From positions 1 through 39,919 of the IMG/VR virus record IMGVR_UViG_3300047388_000310: a stretch of DNA of 39,919 nucleotides. One strand, written 5' to 3'. Positions 9,212-29,030 of this stretch are shown here, piece after piece. Both the position numbers and the translations under genes were made by a program. A model generated the notes under the pieces. It made no database searches. It was not told where the DNA came from and was given only the letters and a program-made list of their open reading frames with translations. Within the stretch, counting starts at the first letter, position 1. Each line of letters opens with the position of its first letter. The DNA comes from a virus.

Positions 9212-10588
9212 CTAGACGTTCGTCCACTGCTCCGAGCCGTAGGTGCTGTTGCACGCCCATAGTTGAAGCTGGGTTCCGCTGGTAGTGCTGTAATTCGGGT
9301 CACGCAGGCACTTGCCCGAGGTGGGGTTCACCCACTCGTGCGTGGTGTTGTTGTATGACCACTGCTGGTTCCACCCGCCGCTGCAGCGGTACAGGTCGAT
9401 TAGTGCGCCGTTCGCCGTGCTGTGGTTGGCGATGTTGATGCACTGCCCCGTGTTCAGGGAGCGTCGCAGCGACCCGTCAGGGTAGGCCACCCAGGTCTGG
9501 CGGGTGAACCCGTTACAGCCGCTGATGTCCACCTTGGTGTTGTTGGCAAGGGAACCGCCAAAGTCATCCACGCAGAAAGTGGACTTCCCCTTCAGCTTGA
9601 TTGCGGCCTTGGGATAGGTGGATGCGGCCTGACAGTTGCTGGTTCGGTTGTCCCACTCAGGCTGCATGGCGAAGGTGCCGGTGCTCATCGTTTCCGCGAA
9701 CAGCCCGGTCCACGCGCACTTGTCGCCGATCTCGAACCCAGCGTTGTCGTACCAGGCGGACTGGTTGTTGACGAACGGGTCGGTGACCGACTCGGTGAAC
9801 TCGTGCCCGCCGACGATGCTCCACCCGTCGAAGGCGTTCTGCACGAAGTTGGCCCCGCAGTTGCCGCCCTGGTCAGGCATGTAGGGCAGGTTGGTCCAGC
9901 TCAGGAGCTGGGTGCTGCTGTACTGGGCCCAGTTGTGGTAGGCGCAATACTGGGAGCCGAAGCCACCGCCGGGGTTGGTGCCCGAGGGGCTGACCACGAC
10001 GATCTGCGTGTTGTTGTTAATCGAGTGGCCGCCGCTGGCCAGGAAGTTGGCGTAGGCCACTGCCACCGCCGCGAGCTGGGCGTCCGTGGCCGAAGCGGGC
10101 ACCGCCCCGTCGCAGTAGACATTCTCCTGGATGAGAGCGTGGCCCGCCACGGTCGGGTAGATGGGGTCAGTGGGGCCGTACTGGCTGGCGATCGGGGCCT
10201 CGGTGTCGCTGCTGGTGCCGATGCCGCTGTAGAGAGCGCCGAGGTAGGCCTCGTCGTTGCCGCCGTTGCCGAGCTGGCCGCTACAGGTGGAGGACCACCA
10301 CAGGCCCCAGTAGATCACGTAGACCTGCGGGTCCTGCTGGACGGGGCCGCCGTGCCAGAGCAGGTTGCCGCCGCCCAGGCGGTTGATGGTGCCCGCCTTG
10401 GCGAACGGGACGGTGATCTTGGGGCTGCCGTGCTGGACGCTTGCCGGGTGCAGGGTGATCCCCCGCAGAAGCGGCGCCGTGTGGTGCGCCGTGCCCGCGC
10501 CCGCGGGGGCGGCGATCCCGAGCGCCGCCAGCAGGGCAGCGGCCAGGAATGCGACGGGGACAGACCATCGCCGCAGGGTTCCAGTCAT
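9212..10588 (-). CDS. Secreted HExxE metalloprotease-like protein with ricin-type lectin domain
   Basis: ATG 10588 is preceded by AAGGAA. The 458-residue protein has a typical signal peptide (basic MTGTLRRW, hydrophobic core to ~residue 30, AGA cleavage region). The central domain (~70-320) contains GGHEFTESVTDP (HEFTE, 262-266) and GFEIGDKCAW (~285-293), the zinc-peptidase-like HExxE plus downstream E-G-D pattern of a family of secreted actinobacterial proteins. Residues ~330-458 form a ricin B-like beta-trefoil with three QxW-type repeats (QTW, QQW, EQW) and disulfide cysteines, which bind sugars. It is probably exported to act at a glycan surface. HExxE replaces the usual HExxH, so catalysis is not certain. 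Last gene of the carbohydrate cassette. Confidence 0.7.
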   Translation of the reverse strand: MTGTLRRWSVPVAFLAAALLAALGIAAPAGAGTAHHTAPLLRGITLHPASVQHGSPKITVPFAKAGTINRLGGGNLLWHGGPVQQDPQVYVIYWGLWWSSTCSGQLGNGGNDEAYLGALYSGIGTSSDTEAPIASQYGPTDPIYPTVAGHALIQENVYCDGAVPASATDAQLAAVAVAYANFLASGGHSINNNTQIVVVSPSGTNPGGGFGSQYCAYHNWAQYSSTQLLSWTNLPYMPDQGGNCGANFVQNAFDGWSIVGGHEFTESVTDPFVNNQSAWYDNAGFEIGDKCAWTGLFAETMSTGTFAMQPEWDNRTSNCQAASTYPKAAIKLKGKSTFCVDDFGGSLANNTKVDISGCNGFTRQTWVAYPDGSLRRSLNTGQCINIANHSTANGALIDLYRCSGGWNQQWSYNNTTHEWVNPTSGKCLRDPNYSTTSGTQLQLWACNSTYGSEQWTNV

Positions 10589-10629
10589 AGATATTCCTTC
10601 CTTGGTTAATGACGTGAATAACGGGGGTC

Positions 10630-11334
10630 TTACCTCACGGAGAACTGCGTGGTTGCCAGGCCTTCGCCATTCACCCACAGCTCGAACCCCGCCGAGATCT
10701 GGACAAGCAAGTCGGCCGGGCGTGCCCAGCCCTGCGTGACTGCCAGCTCGAAAAACGGGGTGAGGTTCAGGTCTGTCACGCTTGCCCGTGGCGTGGCATA
10801 CCGGAACTGGATCAGGTTCCAGGAAACCGAGGGGTCATTCGCGCTCATTCGCGGCCGCTTGCTCAGCAGGAACTCATCCGCCCCCACTGTGACCGGGTAG
10901 GCTCCCAGCGGCACTCTCGGGTACGTGAGCATGATCATCACCTCGGCGACCCGGAACTGCTGGCCGGGCCACTTGCTGAAAATCCAGCAGTCGTAGGTGG
11001 TGTCCCACCTGCTCCCGGGCACGGCGTCCTGGCTGGTTTCCCAGGTGGTGAGGATGGGTCTCAGCCCCGCCAGGCTCACGGGCATGAAGCTTCCGTGCGT
11101 CTTGGCGTTGCCAAAGAGGCTGCAGCCGCTGCTGATGCTGGGGTAGCCCATCACGGCCGAGCTGTCGGCGGCTGATTTCACGATGGTGAAATCAGGGGCA
11201 CCGCTGGCATTGGTGATGCACTGCTCCCCGTTATAGGCGGTGCCGTAGCCCCAGGCGTTGTTGGCCAGGAGATAGGCGGGGGGGCCGCCGGCTGTCACGG
11301 GAAGGGAATCGTACTGCCCGCAGAGGATGCCCAT
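10630..11334 (-). CDS. GH12 endoglucanase-like enzyme lacking a signal peptide
   Basis: A 234-residue protein with the full GH12 pattern: CGQYDS at the N-terminus, NNAWGYG (~25-31), YNGEQCI (~34-40), SSGCS (~68-72), TTWETS, WDTTYDCWIF, EVMIML with the presumed nucleophile Glu131, and SAGFELWVNGEGL with the presumed acid/base Glu218. GH12 enzymes hydrolyse beta-1,4-glucan, xyloglucan or mixed-linkage glucan by a retaining mechanism. The start codon falls where the mature chain of secreted relatives begins; no export signal is visible. It starts four bases after the lipoprotein gene, so it is co-translated. It may trim the polymer made by the GT2 synthase. Family certain; localisation odd. Confidence 0.8.
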   Translation of the reverse strand: MGILCGQYDSLPVTAGGPPAYLLANNAWGYGTAYNGEQCITNASGAPDFTIVKSAADSSAVMGYPSISSGCSLFGNAKTHGSFMPVSLAGLRPILTTWETSQDAVPGSRWDTTYDCWIFSKWPGQQFRVAEVMIMLTYPRVPLGAYPVTVGADEFLLSKRPRMSANDPSVSWNLIQFRYATPRASVTDLNLTPFFELAVTQGWARPADLLVQISAGFELWVNGEGLATTQFSVR

Positions 11335-14268: not shown

Positions 14269-14288
14269 TACCATCTCTAAATATGGTA
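14269..14288. promoter_or_regulatory. Inverted repeat over the serine integrase start codon
   Basis: TACCAT (14269-14274) and ATGGTA (14283-14288) form a 6-bp inverted repeat with an 8-base spacer that includes the ATG of the serine recombinase. TACCAT could also serve as a -10 element for a nearly leaderless transcript; no matching -35 is seen. A protein bound here would block both transcription and translation starts. Confidence 0.4.
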
Positions 14289-15776
14289 GCGGGCCAGGGT
14301 GGCGAATGGGTGGTTTACCTGCGCTTGTCCAAAGGGCGGGCCGGGATCGCCCGGCAGCGCCGGGCCACCATCGCCTGGGTGGAAGGCGACCTCGGCGGCA
14401 CCATCGTAGACGAGTTCCGCGACGCCGATAAGACAGCCTTCCAGCAATTCGGCGGCCCGCTGCCCAAACGGGCCGGGTTCGATGGCATGCTCGCCGCCAT
14501 CGCCGCCCGGCCAGGGCTGAGCGCCGCCGCCTGGCATGCCGACCGGCTGTGCCGCAACCTGGATGACGCCGAGCGGCTGCTCACCACATCGGCTGGCGCC
14601 GGGGGAGTGATCGGCACCCCGGCCGGGGGCATCTACGACCCGTCCACCGCCACCGGGCGGGGGAACTTCCGCCGCGACGTCGTGTCGGCCATCTCCGAGG
14701 TGGACCACATGACCGAGCGGATCGTGCTGATGAAGAACGAGGCCAAGGCGGCCGGGCACTGGCTCGGCGGCCCCAGGCCGTTCGGGTGGGAACGCGACCG
14801 CAGCCGCGAGGACGGGGAGCCGCCGCGGCTGCTGCTGGCGCCTGCCGAGGCGGACCTGATCCGCTCCGGCACCCTGGCGATCATCGAGGGTGCCTCGCTG
14901 CGGTCGGTCGCCGCCGCGTGGAACGCCTCCGGGATCACCGGCCCCAGGGGCGGCACGTGGGCAAACCGGGACGTTTCCCTGATGCTCCGCCGCGCCCGCA
15001 ACGCCGGCCTGGCCGAGCACAACCTCGACGGCACCGGCCCGCAAGTGCTCCGCGACGGCACCTGGCCCGCGCTCGTCACCGCAGACGAGTGGCGCACCTG
15101 CAAGGCGGTCCTGGAGAATCCCGCCCGGCGCACCGCGTTCACCACCCAGCCCAAGCACCTGCTGTCCGGGATCGCGCTATGCGGCGTGTGCGGGTCGCCC
15201 GTCGTGGCCGACGGCGGGAACCGCGGCCGCGGCCGCCCGCGCCAGGTCACCTACCGGGACCGGCCCAAGGGCGGCAAGGGCCACGTAGCCCGCAACGCCG
15301 GCCCGCTCGAGGAGTACGTCAGCGAACTGGTCATCGCCTGGGTCGAGCGGTACGGCCAGGACGCCCTGAACCCGCCCGCCCCGGACACCGCCCTGCTGTC
15401 AGCCCAGTTGCGGGCCGTGGAGGGCGAGCTGCGGTCCCTGGAGCGGGCCGCCGACGAGGGGGCCATCACCAACGCCCAGTGGCTGCGCCGCGTCACCCCG
15501 CTCAACAAGCAGGCCGCCAGCCTGGGCGGCCGCATCGCCAGCGCCGCCGTGGCCAGGGTGCCCGCGCAGGTCTTCACCGAGGACGACATCCGGGCCGGAT
15601 GGCACGCGGCGGACCTCGACGCCCAGCGGGCGATCATCCGCGCGCTCATGACCATCACCATCCTGCCGTCGCCGCCGGGACGGCCACCCGGGTGGAAGCG
15701 GGGCGACGGGCCGTACTTCCGGCCGGAGCTGGTGCGGATCGGGTGGAAGCGCGGGGGCGGCGACCCGGCCGATTGA
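14283..15776 (+). CDS. int: Large serine recombinase (phage integrase)
   Basis: The 497-residue protein has the three-part structure of large serine integrases. The resolvase catalytic domain begins WVVYLRLSKGR (nucleophile Ser16), followed by ARQRRA and AAAWHADRLCRNLDDAERL (~81-99). The recombinase domain begins LGGPRPFGWERD (~161-172), with WNASGITGPRGGTW. The zinc-ribbon region has LCGVCGSP (Cys300, Cys303), but the second cysteine pair is replaced by polar residues (TYRDRPKGGKGHVARNAGP). A coiled-coil-like segment (~365-400) precedes the C-terminus. It should join attP and attB; a gp3-like directionality factor encoded 18 kb away could reverse it. No RBS is seen, suggesting a leaderless start. 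Confidence 0.9.
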   Translation: MVAGQGGEWVVYLRLSKGRAGIARQRRATIAWVEGDLGGTIVDEFRDADKTAFQQFGGPLPKRAGFDGMLAAIAARPGLSAAAWHADRLCRNLDDAERLLTTSAGAGGVIGTPAGGIYDPSTATGRGNFRRDVVSAISEVDHMTERIVLMKNEAKAAGHWLGGPRPFGWERDRSREDGEPPRLLLAPAEADLIRSGTLAIIEGASLRSVAAAWNASGITGPRGGTWANRDVSLMLRRARNAGLAEHNLDGTGPQVLRDGTWPALVTADEWRTCKAVLENPARRTAFTTQPKHLLSGIALCGVCGSPVVADGGNRGRGRPRQVTYRDRPKGGKGHVARNAGPLEEYVSELVIAWVERYGQDALNPPAPDTALLSAQLRAVEGELRSLERAADEGAITNAQWLRRVTPLNKQAASLGGRIASAAVARVPAQVFTEDDIRAGWHAADLDAQRAIIRALMTITILPSPPGRPPGWKRGDGPYFRPELVRIGWKRGGGDPAD

Positions 15777-15799
15777 GTATGACTTCCGCTGAGTTTGGC

Positions 15800-15836
15800 T
15801 TGACAATCCCGATCCGGGCCACGTACGATACGACTT
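15800..15836 (+). promoter_or_regulatory. Consensus promoter giving a leaderless tyrosine recombinase mRNA
   Basis: A perfect TTGACA (15800-15805) and TACGAT (15824-15829) are spaced by 18 bases. The -10 ends seven bases before ATG 15837, so transcription should begin at or next to the start codon. This is the best consensus promoter seen in the window and makes the tyrosine recombinase gene independent of the serine integrase gene 60 bases upstream. Confidence 0.75.
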
Positions 15837-16814
15837 ATGACTAGAAGCGGTACTAAGCCTGTTGAGGGCTCTGACATGACCGTTTCCCGCGGTGACACCG
15901 TCGAATTCGAGGTCAAGGGCCGCGGGAAACTGACCGGGACCGTCGCCAGCGCCTACATGGCGCTCGGGAACAGCCCCCGGGTCACCGTGATCTCCGGCGA
16001 CAAGAAGTACACCCGGCTCGCCGCCAGCGTGACACTCACCCGCAAGGCCGCCGAGGTGCCCGGCGTCAAGGCTGGCTTTGGGCGCCGGAGCGCGGGGGAG
16101 CCCTCGCCCACCCGGGGGCGCCGGTACGCGGCGGAACTGCTCACCCCCGCCGAGGTCGCCGCGATCCTCGACACCTGCTCGCGCCGCGCGCCGACCGGGA
16201 TCCGCAACCGGGCCATGCTCACGCTCCTGTACCGCAGCGGGCTGCGCATCTCCGAACTGCTGGCCCTGCGGCTGAGCGACGTCAACCTCGACGCGCACAC
16301 CATCCGGCTCCTGGACACCAAGTCCGGGAAATCGCAGACCCGCGGGTTCCATCCCTCGGCCACTGATGCCCTCGCCCGGTGGGCCGACAAGCGGCGGCAG
16401 CTCGGCATCCGTAACGGGCGGCTGTTCTGCACCCTCGATGGCGGACCGGTGTCGGCCGAGTACGTGCGGATGATGCTGCGGCGGGCCGCCGCCAAGGCCG
16501 GGATTGAGAAGCGCGTCCACCCGCACGGGCTACGGCACACCTTCGCCGCCGAACTTGAAGCGGCCGGGACGCCGGTGACCACGATCAGCAAACTGCTCGG
16601 CCACTCCTCCGTGGCCGTGACCAACACCTACCTCCAGCACCTCACCAACAGCGAGGCGGTCACCGCCCTGGAAGGCGTAGACCTGCCGCCGCTTCCAGGG
16701 GCCAAGGCCCCTGAGCCGGCCACCCTGGAAGATGAGGTCGCGGCCCTGCGGGAACAGGTAAAGGCCCTGGCCGCCACGGCTTCCGCTCAGGCCGCAAAGC
16801 CGGAGGCGCGCTGA
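15837..16814 (+). CDS. Tyrosine recombinase with SH3/KOW-like N-terminus
   Basis: A 325-residue protein with a complete tyrosine-recombinase catalytic domain (~100-275): YRSGLRISE (Arg137), DTKSGKS (Lys162/165), HPHGLRHTFAAE (His230, Arg233), LLGHSSVAVT (His256) and NTYLQH (Tyr265). Residues ~15-70 are beta-rich (RGDTVEFEVKGRGKLTGTV, SPRVTVISGDKKYTRL) and resemble a small SH3/KOW barrel rather than the helical core-binding domain of ordinary integrases. A short coiled coil ends the protein. ATG 15837 is favoured by the leaderless promoter; ATG 15876, with GAGGGC upstream, is an alternative. It may resolve dimers, act on a second att site, or assist the serine integrase. Confidence 0.85.
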   Translation: MTRSGTKPVEGSDMTVSRGDTVEFEVKGRGKLTGTVASAYMALGNSPRVTVISGDKKYTRLAASVTLTRKAAEVPGVKAGFGRRSAGEPSPTRGRRYAAELLTPAEVAAILDTCSRRAPTGIRNRAMLTLLYRSGLRISELLALRLSDVNLDAHTIRLLDTKSGKSQTRGFHPSATDALARWADKRRQLGIRNGRLFCTLDGGPVSAEYVRMMLRRAAAKAGIEKRVHPHGLRHTFAAELEAAGTPVTTISKLLGHSSVAVTNTYLQHLTNSEAVTALEGVDLPPLPGAKAPEPATLEDEVAALREQVKALAATASAQAAKPEAR

Positions 16815-26157: not shown

Positions 26158-26330
26158 GCGGCTTCCTCCAGTGATCTTTGGTCCCAGCACACGTACCAGC
26201 GGGCCCGGCATTCCGGGCACCGGTAACGGGCGGTCACCATGCCCTGGGACTCACGGGCACTGGGCGGCTCGACGGGCGGGGCGTTCCGCTCTGTGCCGCA
26301 TGCGGGGCAGCGGTCGGCGGGGGCGGTCAC
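26154..26330 (-). CDS. Small zinc-ribbon protein
   Basis: GTG 26330 overlaps the helicase stop (GTGA). 58 residues with two CxxC pairs, DRCPACGTER and RYRCPECRARWYVCW, which fit a zinc ribbon. Longer frames run through the helicase gene and were rejected. It may be a helicase or polymerase accessory, but this is only positional inference. Confidence 0.6.
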   Translation of the reverse strand: MTAPADRCPACGTERNAPPVEPPSARESQGMVTARYRCPECRARWYVCWDQRSLEEAA

Positions 26331-27580
26331 GCGGCACCCCAGGTGTTCTCGGGCTGCCGTTTGTAGACCCGCCACGGCCACGTCCCGCCGGCGGTGAGCA
26401 TCTCCGGCCAGTCGCGCTCGTCCCGGTCGCCACGCCAGGCGACCAGGTCCACGGTCCGCTCCAGCTTGGCGGTCTCGTCGTCGGACCAGCGCAGGCCGTA
26501 GCCGAACTCGGGCCAGCCGAGGAACGCCGAGCTGCCCCGCGGGCGCAGGTCGCGCCGCCCGCCCGGCCCTTGCGCGTGGCCGGCGTGGGCCTCGAGCACG
26601 ACCGCGCTCCCCCGGGCCCGGATCAGGTTCAGGGCAGCGATGACCGGGGCGGCCTCGTCGTCGGTCTGCAGCGCCCGCGGCGCCAGCCGGTACAGCGGGC
26701 CGAGGAACGTGATGTCGGGCATGACCGCGGCGGCCTGCCGCAGCAGCCAGGACACGTCCTTGTCGAGCGCGAGGTCCATGCCCTGCGGCCGGCATTCGAC
26801 CCACAGGTTCGCCTCGTCCACCTCGCAGCCCTGCAGCCGGGCCTGGGTGACCAGGGGGCGGATCTTGCGCCGGGTGTGCCTGGCGGTGTTCTCGCAGTCG
26901 ATGAACAGAACCCGGGCCGGCTTGACCGGCTCGTAGGTGAACGGGTGCAGCCCGGCGGCCGCCATGACAGCCAGCCACCGCAGGGTGTGACTTTTGCCCA
27001 CGCCCTCGACTCCGGTGAGGATGAGCCGGTCACCGCGCTCCAGCAGGTTCTTGATCACCCAGTCGTAGGCGTCGTCCTCGTCTTCCGCGCCGAGGAACTC
27101 GGTGATCGTCTGGACGGTCAGGCCGTCGCCGAGGCCGCCGTCCCGGACCGCCTCGAACTCCCGCAGCGCGCGCTCGGTGAGCCCGTGCGCGTCCACGTCG
27201 GTGCCATCGGTCATCTGGAGCACCCGGGATGCCGCTTCCCGCACCCGACGCAGCACGGCTTTCTCCCGGACGATCCGGGCGTAGTGCGGGCCGTTCGCCG
27301 GGGCGGGCGCTGAGGATGTCAGCGTGTGCAGGTAGAGCGCGTCCAGTTGCCCGCGCAACTCCCCCGCCGCTTCCAGCCGGTCTTTGACGGTCACCCAGTC
27401 GGCGGGCGCGTTTTCTCGCATCAGGGCGAGGATCGCGGTGAACACGGTGCCGTGCGCCGGCCGGAAGAAGTCCCCGGCGGCGAGCGCCTGCCGGCACGCC
27501 TCGGCGGCGGCGGCGGAGTTCATCATGGCACCGAGGACGGCGCTCTCGGCGGCGAGGTCGTGCGGGGGCATGTCGTTCAC
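26327..27580 (-). CDS. DnaB-like replicative helicase with RepA/AAA_25-type ATPase
   Basis: GTG start, 417 residues. The N-terminal ~110 residues match the DnaB N-domain: HDLAAESAVLGAMMNS, CRQALAAGDFFRPAHGTVF, WVTVKDRLEAAGE. After a linker, the RecA-like ATPase has Walker A LTGVEGVGKSHTLRW (190-197) and Walker B VLFIDCEN (~224-231), then VVLEAHAGHAQ, RGSSAFLGWPEFGYGL. The C-terminal half resembles the AAA_25/RepA hexameric helicase family rather than full DnaB. It is probably loaded by the initiator encoded just upstream to unwind phage DNA. Confidence 0.85.
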   Translation of the reverse strand: MNDMPPHDLAAESAVLGAMMNSAAAAEACRQALAAGDFFRPAHGTVFTAILALMRENAPADWVTVKDRLEAAGELRGQLDALYLHTLTSSAPAPANGPHYARIVREKAVLRRVREAASRVLQMTDGTDVDAHGLTERALREFEAVRDGGLGDGLTVQTITEFLGAEDEDDAYDWVIKNLLERGDRLILTGVEGVGKSHTLRWLAVMAAAGLHPFTYEPVKPARVLFIDCENTARHTRRKIRPLVTQARLQGCEVDEANLWVECRPQGMDLALDKDVSWLLRQAAAVMPDITFLGPLYRLAPRALQTDDEAAPVIAALNLIRARGSAVVLEAHAGHAQGPGGRRDLRPRGSSAFLGWPEFGYGLRWSDDETAKLERTVDLVAWRGDRDERDWPEMLTAGGTWPWRVYKRQPENTWGAA

Positions 27581-28452
27581 GGGCGGTACCTGTGCTCGTC
27601 TCGTGGGCTGGTGCCGGGGGGCAGTGCGGGCGATCTTGACGGTGGTGCGCGGCGGGATGGCGTGAGGCCCTCGATCTCGACGCGCAGCGAGTCAACGGTG
27701 ACCGGCTGCCCGCTCTTGGCCATTCGCAGCAAGGCGGCGAGTACTTCCTTGTCGGCGTACTTGCCGGATTTGATGGCCAGGATGACGATGCCGTTGATCG
27801 CTGGCCACTTGCACATCGGCTGAGCCTCGGCGTAGGCGTCGGTGATCGGCTTTGAGCGCTGGGTGGGAGTGAGCCCGTTGGCCGCGCCAGCGGCAGACAC
27901 CGTAGGTGTCTGGTTAGTCGACGTCTCTGTACCTGTGGTCCCGTTAGGGACTACAGGTACAGAGACAGAGACAGTGTTGCTTCCGGTTTGCTTAGCATCT
28001 TGGTAAGCAAGTTGGTTACCACTTGCTTGTGGGGTGCGCTGAGATGCACGCTGAGCAGGGCGTTTACGACTCTTGCGGCCACCCGTCCGGCCCGCCTTGG
28101 CGCGCACTTCTGATAGCTCCTGGACCTCCTCGCGGGAGGGGTTTCGCTTCAGGTATGCGAGCACCTGCCAACCGGTTGCTTCGTTTTTGGTTACCTCTTT
28201 GATTAGCAAAACGGAAGCAAGTTGCTTAGCAAGTTGGTTACCGTGCTCTGGGTCCAGGGGGTAGACGAGCAATCCGACCTGCTCAGCGGACACGAACCCA
28301 TCGGTCAGGCCGTCCTTGCAGTGCAGGACCATCTGCACGTAGAGATCCCGGGCGAGGCCCGCATCCGGGGCACCGAACTTGGCGAGCGCGCGAACCTTCC
28401 GGTCGTTCGGGAAGCCGACGACCAGCTTGATGTAGATCTCCTGGAGGGGCAT
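27577..28452 (-). CDS. Putative phage replication initiator with internal origin
   Basis: ATG 28452 overlaps the endonuclease VII stop (TGATG). The 291-residue product has an N-terminal winged-helix-like domain (EIYIKLVVGFPNDRKVRALA, LARDLYVQMVLHCKDGLTDG, LLVYPLDPEHG, GWQVLAYLKRNPSREEVQ), a low-complexity middle (~130-210), and a C-terminal part with KPITDAYAEAQPMCKW and VLAALLRMAKSGQPVTVDSL, which may contact helicase. Order (initiator, then helicase) matches phage replication modules. The middle part uses AT-rich codons and carries the repeats described as a putative origin. The initiator call is inference from fold and context. Confidence 0.65.
   Translation of the reverse strand: MPLQEIYIKLVVGFPNDRKVRALAKFGAPDAGLARDLYVQMVLHCKDGLTDGFVSAEQVGLLVYPLDPEHGNQLAKQLASVLLIKEVTKNEATGWQVLAYLKRNPSREEVQELSEVRAKAGRTGGRKSRKRPAQRASQRTPQASGNQLAYQDAKQTGSNTVSVSVPVVPNGTTGTETSTNQTPTVSAAGAANGLTPTQRSKPITDAYAEAQPMCKWPAINGIVILAIKSGKYADKEVLAALLRMAKSGQPVTVDSLRVEIEGLTPSRRAPPSRSPALPPGTSPRDEHRYRP
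27920..28245. other. Putative replication origin: 20-bp hairpin plus iteron-like repeats
   Basis: A 20-bp inverted repeat with one mismatch and a GTTA loop spans 27923-27942 and 27947-27966. Next to it are repeats: AGCAAGTTGGTTACC occurs exactly at 28006-28020 and 28228-28242; TTGCTTAGCA at 27988-27997 and 28222-28231; TTGCTT also at 27977, 28023 and 28176; GGTTACC also at 28189-28195; AAGCAAGTTGCTT (28215-28227) is a perfect palindrome. All lie inside the initiator gene with AT-rich codons unlike the surroundings. Initiator-gene-internal iterons are the classical lambdoid arrangement. Confidence 0.6.
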
Positions 28453-29030
28453 CAGGCCACCGCCGTGACCGTGAGGGACTTCAGGATCTCTTGCTCGACG
28501 TGCCACTGGAGCCACGCTGTAGCTTCGGTGGTGTAGACATCCATGGGGGCCATGTTCTGCGGCCCGCGGTATTCGTAGATGTCCTTCCATGACCACCATG
28601 AGATGCCTGGCCTGCGGTTGCCCTGCGGACGCCATTTCCTGTCGCGCTCGCGCAGCCAGAAAACACCCCACTGGTCGTGGATCACGGAACCAATGTCGGG
28701 CTCGGGCATGATGGTGGTCGGGACGCCGACTCGGGCGCATTCCTGCATCCACCAGGCGTTGGCCAGGTATTCGGCGCACCACGGATATGCGACACGCCCT
28801 TTGCCGAGGTGGCTGTTGCAGCCGTTGCACAACAGGCCCCGTACGGCCCACTGATAGTCGCCGTGGTCTATGGCAAGCTTTCCGTGTGATGCCCGCTCCC
28901 CCGGCGTCCCGCATATCTCGCATCGCTGCCCGCTGCGGGCAAGGAGCCGCTCGTACTGCTCGCAGCCAAGCTTGTAGCGACGGTGTGTCATACACCAGTC
29001 GTGGTCTGGCAGCGTGCGCGAGATGGCCAA
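28452..29030 (-). CDS. Endonuclease VII-like HNH/zinc nuclease
   Basis: TTG 29030 gives 192 residues; ATG 28991 is an alternative, and neither has a good RBS. The zinc and active-site pattern of endonuclease VII is complete: QRCEICGTPGE (Cys37, Cys40), LAIDHGDYQWAVRGLLCNGC (Asp55, His56, Cys68, Cys71) and NSHLGKGR (Asn72). T4 endonuclease VII resolves branched DNA before packaging. The C-terminal half (YLANAWWMQEC to LKSLTVTAVA) has no known domain. First gene of the lower early operon, read from the regulatory region with CATGATG repeats. Confidence 0.8.
   Translation of the reverse strand: MAISRTLPDHDWCMTHRRYKLGCEQYERLLARSGQRCEICGTPGERASHGKLAIDHGDYQWAVRGLLCNGCNSHLGKGRVAYPWCAEYLANAWWMQECARVGVPTTIMPEPDIGSVIHDQWGVFWLRERDRKWRPQGNRRPGISWWSWKDIYEYRGPQNMAPMDVYTTEATAWLQWHVEQEILKSLTVTAVA

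Follow-up and report, generated by a model that had tools for sequence, protein, structure and literature searches.

A putative replication origin inside the initiator gene of a temperate phage, with a repeat layout shared by many other initiators

Our analysis points to a stretch of DNA (positions 27920-28245 of a virus record) that, judged from sequence comparison, is very probably a temperate phage's replication origin, embedded in the phage's own initiator gene as in lambda. A lambda-like in-gene origin is known in principle; what is new is its place and detail, in a phage of a GC-rich host. This origin appears to be part of a broad pattern, with many unrelated-looking relatives that have the same layout. 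The lytic replication origins of actinophages seem to be largely unmapped, and the layout allows a testable origin prediction from sequence for many sequenced phages. It also illustrates how initiator and binding sites can evolve together as a single piece of DNA, and it points to two putative origin elements without a known role, a tandem tract and a C-TAAC-G hairpin.

The window, by which we mean the whole stretch of DNA analyzed, is the complete virus record (39,919 bases, 69% GC), and its replication genes lie on the minus strand (Table 1). By its family and its position beside a DnaB-type helicase gene, the gene that carries the repeats is best identified as a phage replication initiator, in agreement with the original prediction. 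The profile matches to phrog_3926 and phrog_2447 cover its N-terminal domain, and a Pfam profile search gave no family above the cutoff. Its start codon overlaps the stop codon of the upstream endonuclease VII gene, and the helicase gene on its other side matches the DnaB N-terminal (PF00772) and AAA_25 (PF13481) families. The N-terminal domain of such initiators has a winged-helix fold; for this protein, a single-sequence model was too poor to assess the fold (mean pLDDT, 38). Elsewhere, the window holds a gene like those of recombination directionality factors and, side by side on the plus strand, serine recombinase and tyrosine integrase genes (14283-16814). On the minus strand at 9212-11334, an open reading frame with a ricin-type lectin domain lies beside a subthreshold match to glycosyl hydrolase family 12, possibly a host-derived flank or a cargo region.

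Table 1. Genes and candidate origin elements in the replication region of the window
Feature	Position	Strand	Description
Endonuclease VII-type gene	28452..29030	-	Directly upstream of the initiator gene; PF02945 (2.5e-10), phrog_2633 (1.1e-14)
Predicted replication initiator gene	27577..28452	-	291 aa; phrog_3926 (7.6e-12), phrog_2447 (3.6e-10)
Iteron array 2	28176..28244	+	In the part coding for the N-terminal domain; sites at 28187, 28199, 28222, 28234
Iteron array 1	27977..28033	+	In the linker-coding part; full sites at 27988, 28000, 28012 (TTGCTTAGCAT, TTGGTAAGCAA, TTGGTTACCAC)
Short hexamer tract	27959..27974	+	ACAGAGACAGAGACAG (CTGTCTCTGTCTCTGT on the coding strand); adjoins array 1 and overlaps one hairpin arm
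Hairpin	27923..27966	-	19/20 paired; coding-strand loop C-TAAC-G at 27942-27947
DnaB-type replicative helicase gene	26327..27580	-	Directly downstream of the initiator gene; PF00772 (6.3e-24), PF13481 (2.5e-19), phrog_19 (5.4e-28)

The repeat unit is an 11-bp odd palindrome, TTGSTWASCAA. Seven sites with at most two mismatches, spaced 12 bp apart within each run, form two arrays 200 to 475 nt inside the coding region. The full sites of array 1 span 27988-28022, with degenerate half-sites at 27977 and 28023; those of array 2 span 28187-28244, with degenerate half-sites at 28176 and 28210. When the whole 39.9 kb was searched, sites with at most one mismatch were confined to the initiator gene, and 9 of the 40 TTGST half-sites on the plus strand and 4 of the 36 ASCAA half-sites fell inside this 300-bp stretch. 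Array 1 has a GC content of 0.47, compared with 0.69 for the window. Both arrays are unusually unstable for this genome: when all 60-bp stretches of the window are ranked from the least stable upward, DNA at or beside the iterons comes fourth and seventh. The fourth, at 28180, lies in array 2, and only 0.04% of such stretches are less stable. The sequence features named in the original prediction were reproduced: an inverted repeat with 20-nt arms (27923-27942 and 27947-27966) that are 95% complementary around a 4-nt loop; exact iterons, with AGCAAGTTGGTTACC present twice (28006-28020 and 28228-28242), TTGCTTAGCA twice, and GGTTACC three times; and AT-rich codons, with a GC3 of 0.52 in 27920-28245 versus 0.88 and 0.81 in the parts of the gene that precede and follow it. 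The raw count of short repeats is not unique to this stretch, as equal or higher scores are reached elsewhere in the window, mostly in GC-rich segments.

The repeats exceed what the protein requires. We shuffled synonymous codons with the protein preserved, either over the whole gene or only within the AT-rich region, the latter keeping the regional codons. Ten sites with at most one mismatch were observed (five palindromic sites, counted on both strands) versus a mean of 0.63 in whole-gene shuffles, none of 1,000 having as many; none reached the number of sites with at most two mismatches either, while 24 equaled the longest exact repeat (15) and 8 the best hairpin (19/20). Region-only shuffles equaled the one-mismatch count in 1 of 1,000 cases, the two-mismatch count in 16, the longest repeat in 12, and the hairpin in 8; there were 24 exact 8-mer pairs versus a mean of 2.8, a number never reached in 1,000 shuffles. 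Likewise, none of 300 shuffles equaled the window initiator in 8-mers common to gene stretches at least 90 nt apart, such as the two arrays. The iteron count of the linker alone was not significant (47/200). It had also been argued that DNA rather than protein is selected here, since both copies of the 15-mer encode GNQLA. That argument falls, because selection on the protein would fit equally well; selection on the DNA is supported instead by the codon shuffles and by copies in another frame. The 11-mer is read on the coding strand as SGNQ, HGNQ, LAYQ, LAKQ, and DAKQ at five sites and, in the other frame, as EVTK and LLIK at sites 28187 and 28199.

Two experimentally established in-gene origins served as positive controls. 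A codon-shuffle test was equaled by 0 of 500 shuffles for lambda O, 6 of 500 for TP901-1 rep, and 0 of 500 for the window initiator, compared with at least 25 of 500 for each of nine control genes (lambda P, two TP901-1 genes, and six other genes of the window). As in a lambda-type in-gene origin, we find repeats inside the gene beyond the needs of the protein, less stable DNA, and an adjacent helicase gene. The likeness to lambda O, and to P27 and 933W, lies in palindromic iterons in the middle of the initiator gene, followed by a different tract and by a helicase-recruiting gene. Lambda, however, has four 18-bp iterons 20 to 24 bp apart in one array and an AT-rich tract, whereas in the window the units are 11 bp long and 12 bp apart, in two arrays separated by about 150 bp, and are accompanied by a hexamer tract and a stable hairpin; and while gene P adjoins O in lambda, the neighbor in the window is the DnaB-type helicase itself. 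No O-type profile was among the initiator's matches in the PHROG and Pfam searches. Classical iteron plasmid origins of the RepA/Rep_3 type have iterons of about 17 to 22 bp beside the rep gene, unlike the 11-bp units inside the gene seen here, and the initiator has no Rep_3 Pfam match.

Published descriptions place these comparisons in context. The lambda origin is described as lying in the middle of gene O (PMC7466680). For TP901-1 and Tuc2009, experimentally shown direct-repeat origins inside initiator genes are reported (PMC8965321); the repeat-rich in-gene location is shared with the window, but the annotated TP901-1 initiator is DnaD-like and that phage is low in GC. SPP1 oriL is reported to lie inside gene 38, where the initiator binds direct repeats and an AT-rich element unwinds (PMC6316719); the initiator's direct repeats within its own gene are the likeness, and a second origin elsewhere and a separate loader are the differences. 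For extrachromosomal mycobacterial prophages, one study suggests an origin upstream of or within repA, like that of lambda, and reports finding no repeats (PMC7157519); there RepA serves prophage maintenance and is not a phrog_3926 initiator. For nine Gordonia phage genomes, origins reportedly could not be identified (PMC4524720). Our search of the literature, in which subscription papers were thinly covered, turned up neither the C-TAAC-G hairpin nor any description of an in-gene lytic origin in actinophages.

We propose the following model for origin function, all steps of which are extrapolated from sequence. The N-terminal domain of the initiator would bind the 11-bp palindromic iterons in both arrays; the bound arrays, which belong to the least stable DNA in the window, would strain and open the duplex; and the initiator would then deliver the DnaB-type helicase, the product of the next gene, with replication presumably running in theta mode. 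The tract and the C-TAAC-G hairpin beside array 1 may be further origin elements, most likely acting on that strand when it is single, as a landing or priming site. GC skew, one of the checks suggested with the original prediction, offers no clear origin signal, which is a point against the model: the deepest cumulative minimum lies near 9 kb, and the one near 27 kb is local and shallow.

Whole-initiator homology searches returned only the window itself or nothing, so that the collections hold no close relative; the C-terminal 77 residues of the initiator and the window helicase, the latter searched against viral contigs, had no match, and the N-terminal 132 residues gave only weak matches (E values of 0.03 to 8), the Propionibacterium phages B22 and E6 being among the few. 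Because there was no close relative, initiators were gathered in three ways: through weak homology, through a location next to DnaB-type genes, and through homology to Catfish and Rousseau. Both phrog_3926 and phrog_2447 are matched by B22, Doucette, REQ2, Catfish, Rousseau, ThulaThula, Appa, Bibwit, and loci L059 and L128, whereas L060 matches other replication-initiator families instead. A local-cluster test (at most 3 of 300 codon shuffles) was passed by 18 of 27 panel genes, the window included; among these, L004 and L009 are not independent, because they were found with the iteron pattern. By eye, the typical order is array, array, tract, and then hairpin or palindrome, although the statistics clearly support a second array for only some of the panel genes, and the palindromes are lineage specific (TCGCTTAGCGA in the Catfish family, TGCGANTCGCA in Rousseau, and GGCAATTTGCC in Bibwit). 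The nine failures include CheeseTouch and Howe, which still carry their family's motif, and the four short initiators of B22, E6, Doucette, and REQ2, which have clusters just downstream instead; that of Doucette was equaled by 1 of 46 segments of its locus. A reading in which the short initiators of these four phages and of Llama have no such element was thus wrong for four of the five; in Llama, no cluster was found in the initiator gene or just downstream.

How general the layout is was measured in a held-out sample. We fetched 95 loci from viral and genome contigs by alignment to a C-terminal domain, one which the window initiator does not have; 65 were nonredundant, 51 remained after 14 with less than 250 nt before the domain were dropped, and 46 after five panel phages were set aside. 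Of the 46 initiator genes, 34 had repeat clusters (at most 2 of 200 codon shuffles), compared with 2 of 74 neighboring genes in these loci (Fisher P = 2e-17), and in 33 of the 34 the cluster lay 41 to 269 nt before the C-terminal domain; the other 12 initiators failed the test. At the same threshold, iterons were found in 32, a tract in 10, and a perfect stem in 7 of the 46, and hence the iterons are general while the tract and the hairpin are not universal. On this comparison of sequences, the in-gene repeat layout recurs in most of the initiators examined. The original prediction had been made to depend on conservation of the repeats in relatives; the layout does recur at the family level, and the motif itself is found at the initiator of a distant homolog.

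That distant homolog is represented by B22 and E6, which are near-identical in the iteron region and were the only 2 of 121 loci not fetched with the motif (L020 to L140) to match two adjacent iterons. Their iterons, GGTAAGCAA, are the same as those of the window and lie at and beyond the stop codon of the short initiator, followed by a CCCGTA tract; in E6, another annotated gene overlaps the array. As the array is mostly beyond the stop codon, the initiator protein sequence cannot explain it, and as the motif is common to these phages and the window, the weak N-terminal matches become credible. Doucette and REQ2 have arrays of their own in the downstream place. In Propionibacterium and Rhodococcus phages with short initiators (L020 4280-4440, L023 4244-4400, L021 4400-4520, and L022 4340-4490), the initiator stops at its iterons or before reaching them. 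A palindrome resembling TTACGTAA follows the tract in B22, in Doucette, and partly in REQ2, and is also seen in the Gordonia phage Bibwit.

Synonymous sites, whose comparison in relatives had been suggested as a check on the original prediction, could be compared in one family, the Catfish type (n = 5; Catfish, ThulaThula, CheeseTouch, Howe, and Typha), and there they are conserved at the arrays. At equal amino acids within the first 150 aligned residues, the same codon was used at a rate of 0.83 in array A, 0.91 in array B, and 1.00 in the tract, compared with 0.54 in the rest; the regions had been picked on Catfish by visual inspection once the motif was known. None of 10,000 permutations gave as large a difference between the arrays and all other columns.

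The hairpin of the window is predicted to be stable as single-stranded DNA (-21.2 kcal/mol; z score, -5.4; 0 of 200 dinucleotide shuffles as good), although its uninterrupted stem taken alone is weak (22/200 codon shuffles), as is the tract alone (a run of 10 at period 6; 5/200 codon shuffles as long). It has no Rfam match. Among 90 CTAACG sites in 520 kb, five form hairpins with at least 8 of 10 arm pairs, and all five fall on the coding strand of initiator linkers, in the same place in each: in the window, L059, L060, L128 (a Bifidobacterium saguini contig), and the Microbacterium phage Appa, with Appa and the window assigned to the linker by their coordinates. The arms of the five are entirely different in sequence, and a coding-strand hairpin with this loop is apparently undescribed so far. 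T(A/G)NC loops, a class picked after the hairpins had been seen, account for 10 of 21 loops on the coding strand of linkers versus 6 of 172 elsewhere; two of these ten, in L080 and L123, sit right where the C-terminal domain begins and may be a product of the conserved coding there. Several linker tracts with CCCGA, CCCAT, GGGAA, or CCCGT units (among L037, L038, L031, L035, L033, and L034) have at least four G3 runs on one strand. Such tracts could form G-quadruplexes and CAGAGA tracts could not; a G-quadruplex role for the G-rich tracts was set aside, as neither the CAGAGA tracts nor the window accord with it.

These observations open the way for a wider and more tentative hypothesis, which we consider possible but somewhat doubtful: that actinophages and many other phages share an undescribed modular origin in the linker-coding part of the initiator gene. 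It would comprise, in this order, lineage-specific short palindromic iterons, a strand-asymmetric tandem tract of 5- to 6-bp units (CAGAGA, CCCGA, CCCAT, GGGAA, or CCCGTA), and a hairpin whose coding-strand loop is often C-T(A/G)NC-G, with both tract and hairpin acting on single-stranded DNA. With the origin embedded in the gene, an initiator and its sites would travel and change specificity as one cassette. If this is true, the tract and the hairpin are new origin elements.

Could the repeats serve another function? They might be operators at which the initiator or a phage repressor shuts the early operon without replication firing there. Palindromic 11-mer arrays do resemble the sites of a dimeric DNA-binding protein, and initiators often regulate their own genes, but the sites lie deep in the coding region and not at a promoter, good matches to the motif occur nowhere else in the window, and two proven origins use the same kind of position; we therefore hold this explanation to be quite improbable. 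Far less still can be said for a simple consequence of protein sequence, that is, a low-complexity linker plus a foreign codon patch with no DNA function. While the linker is of low complexity, the GC3 is locally low, and other phage genes contain tandem 12-mers that can look like the motif, the shuffles kept both the protein and the regional codons, the motif is read in two frames, synonymous sites are conserved in the related Catfish-type family, and the arrays of B22, E6, Doucette, and REQ2 lie mostly beyond the stop codon, all of which makes this reading hard to credit.

A partition (parS-like) or recombination site would also place clustered inverted repeats beside replication genes, and parS repeats next to repA are described for some mycobacterial prophages (PMC7157519). 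Nevertheless, no parA- or parB-like gene was seen among the window's open reading frames searched, partition is not expected given the integrase genes and the recombination directionality factor-like gene, and the layout goes with initiator genes, so that such a site is extremely unlikely. The hairpin taken by itself is a different matter, as it could be an mRNA element instead of a piece of the origin, serving in pausing, in processing, or in coupling translation to the helicase gene; this would be compatible with the arrays being the origin. Its stem is stable, and C-UAAC-G loops are also plausible RNA tetraloops; its place directly after the iterons and the tract, and the confinement of all five C-TAAC-G hairpins to initiator linkers, argue the other way and leave an RNA role rather unlikely. 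An origin inside the initiator gene is thus the reading we prefer for the arrays, as originally predicted, in view of the identity of the initiator, the layout in relatives, and the two proven in-gene origins used as controls.

DNA-only scans with iteron patterns matched 43 distinct stretches, 10 of which are in or at initiator-like genes (L004, L018, L009, L146, L147, L149, L150, L151, L153, and L156), although L151 and L156 are included solely through families that have no assigned function and that known initiators match as well. In these stretches L004 is nearly identical to L018, and L146, L147, L149, and L150 are nearly identical to one another; L009 and L153 are DnaD-like initiators of very different base composition. 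Two weak matches to the L009 query, L144 and L159, were left uncounted because repeats alone could cause them. Many of the remaining matches, in the part of the 43 that was classified, are 12-bp repeats in other genes, and this result weakens the DNA motif alone as a marker. Tandem 12-bp repeats of the GGTAACCAA type mimic the iterons in a different phage gene family (L007, L008, L010, L011, L014, L015, and L017), of which L007 matches phrog_16786, a family of unknown function. Finally, eight perfect 12-bp units with GGTAAGCCCC lie inside a DnaD-like helicase loader gene of a high-GC phage (L004 2820-2930 and L018 470-580).
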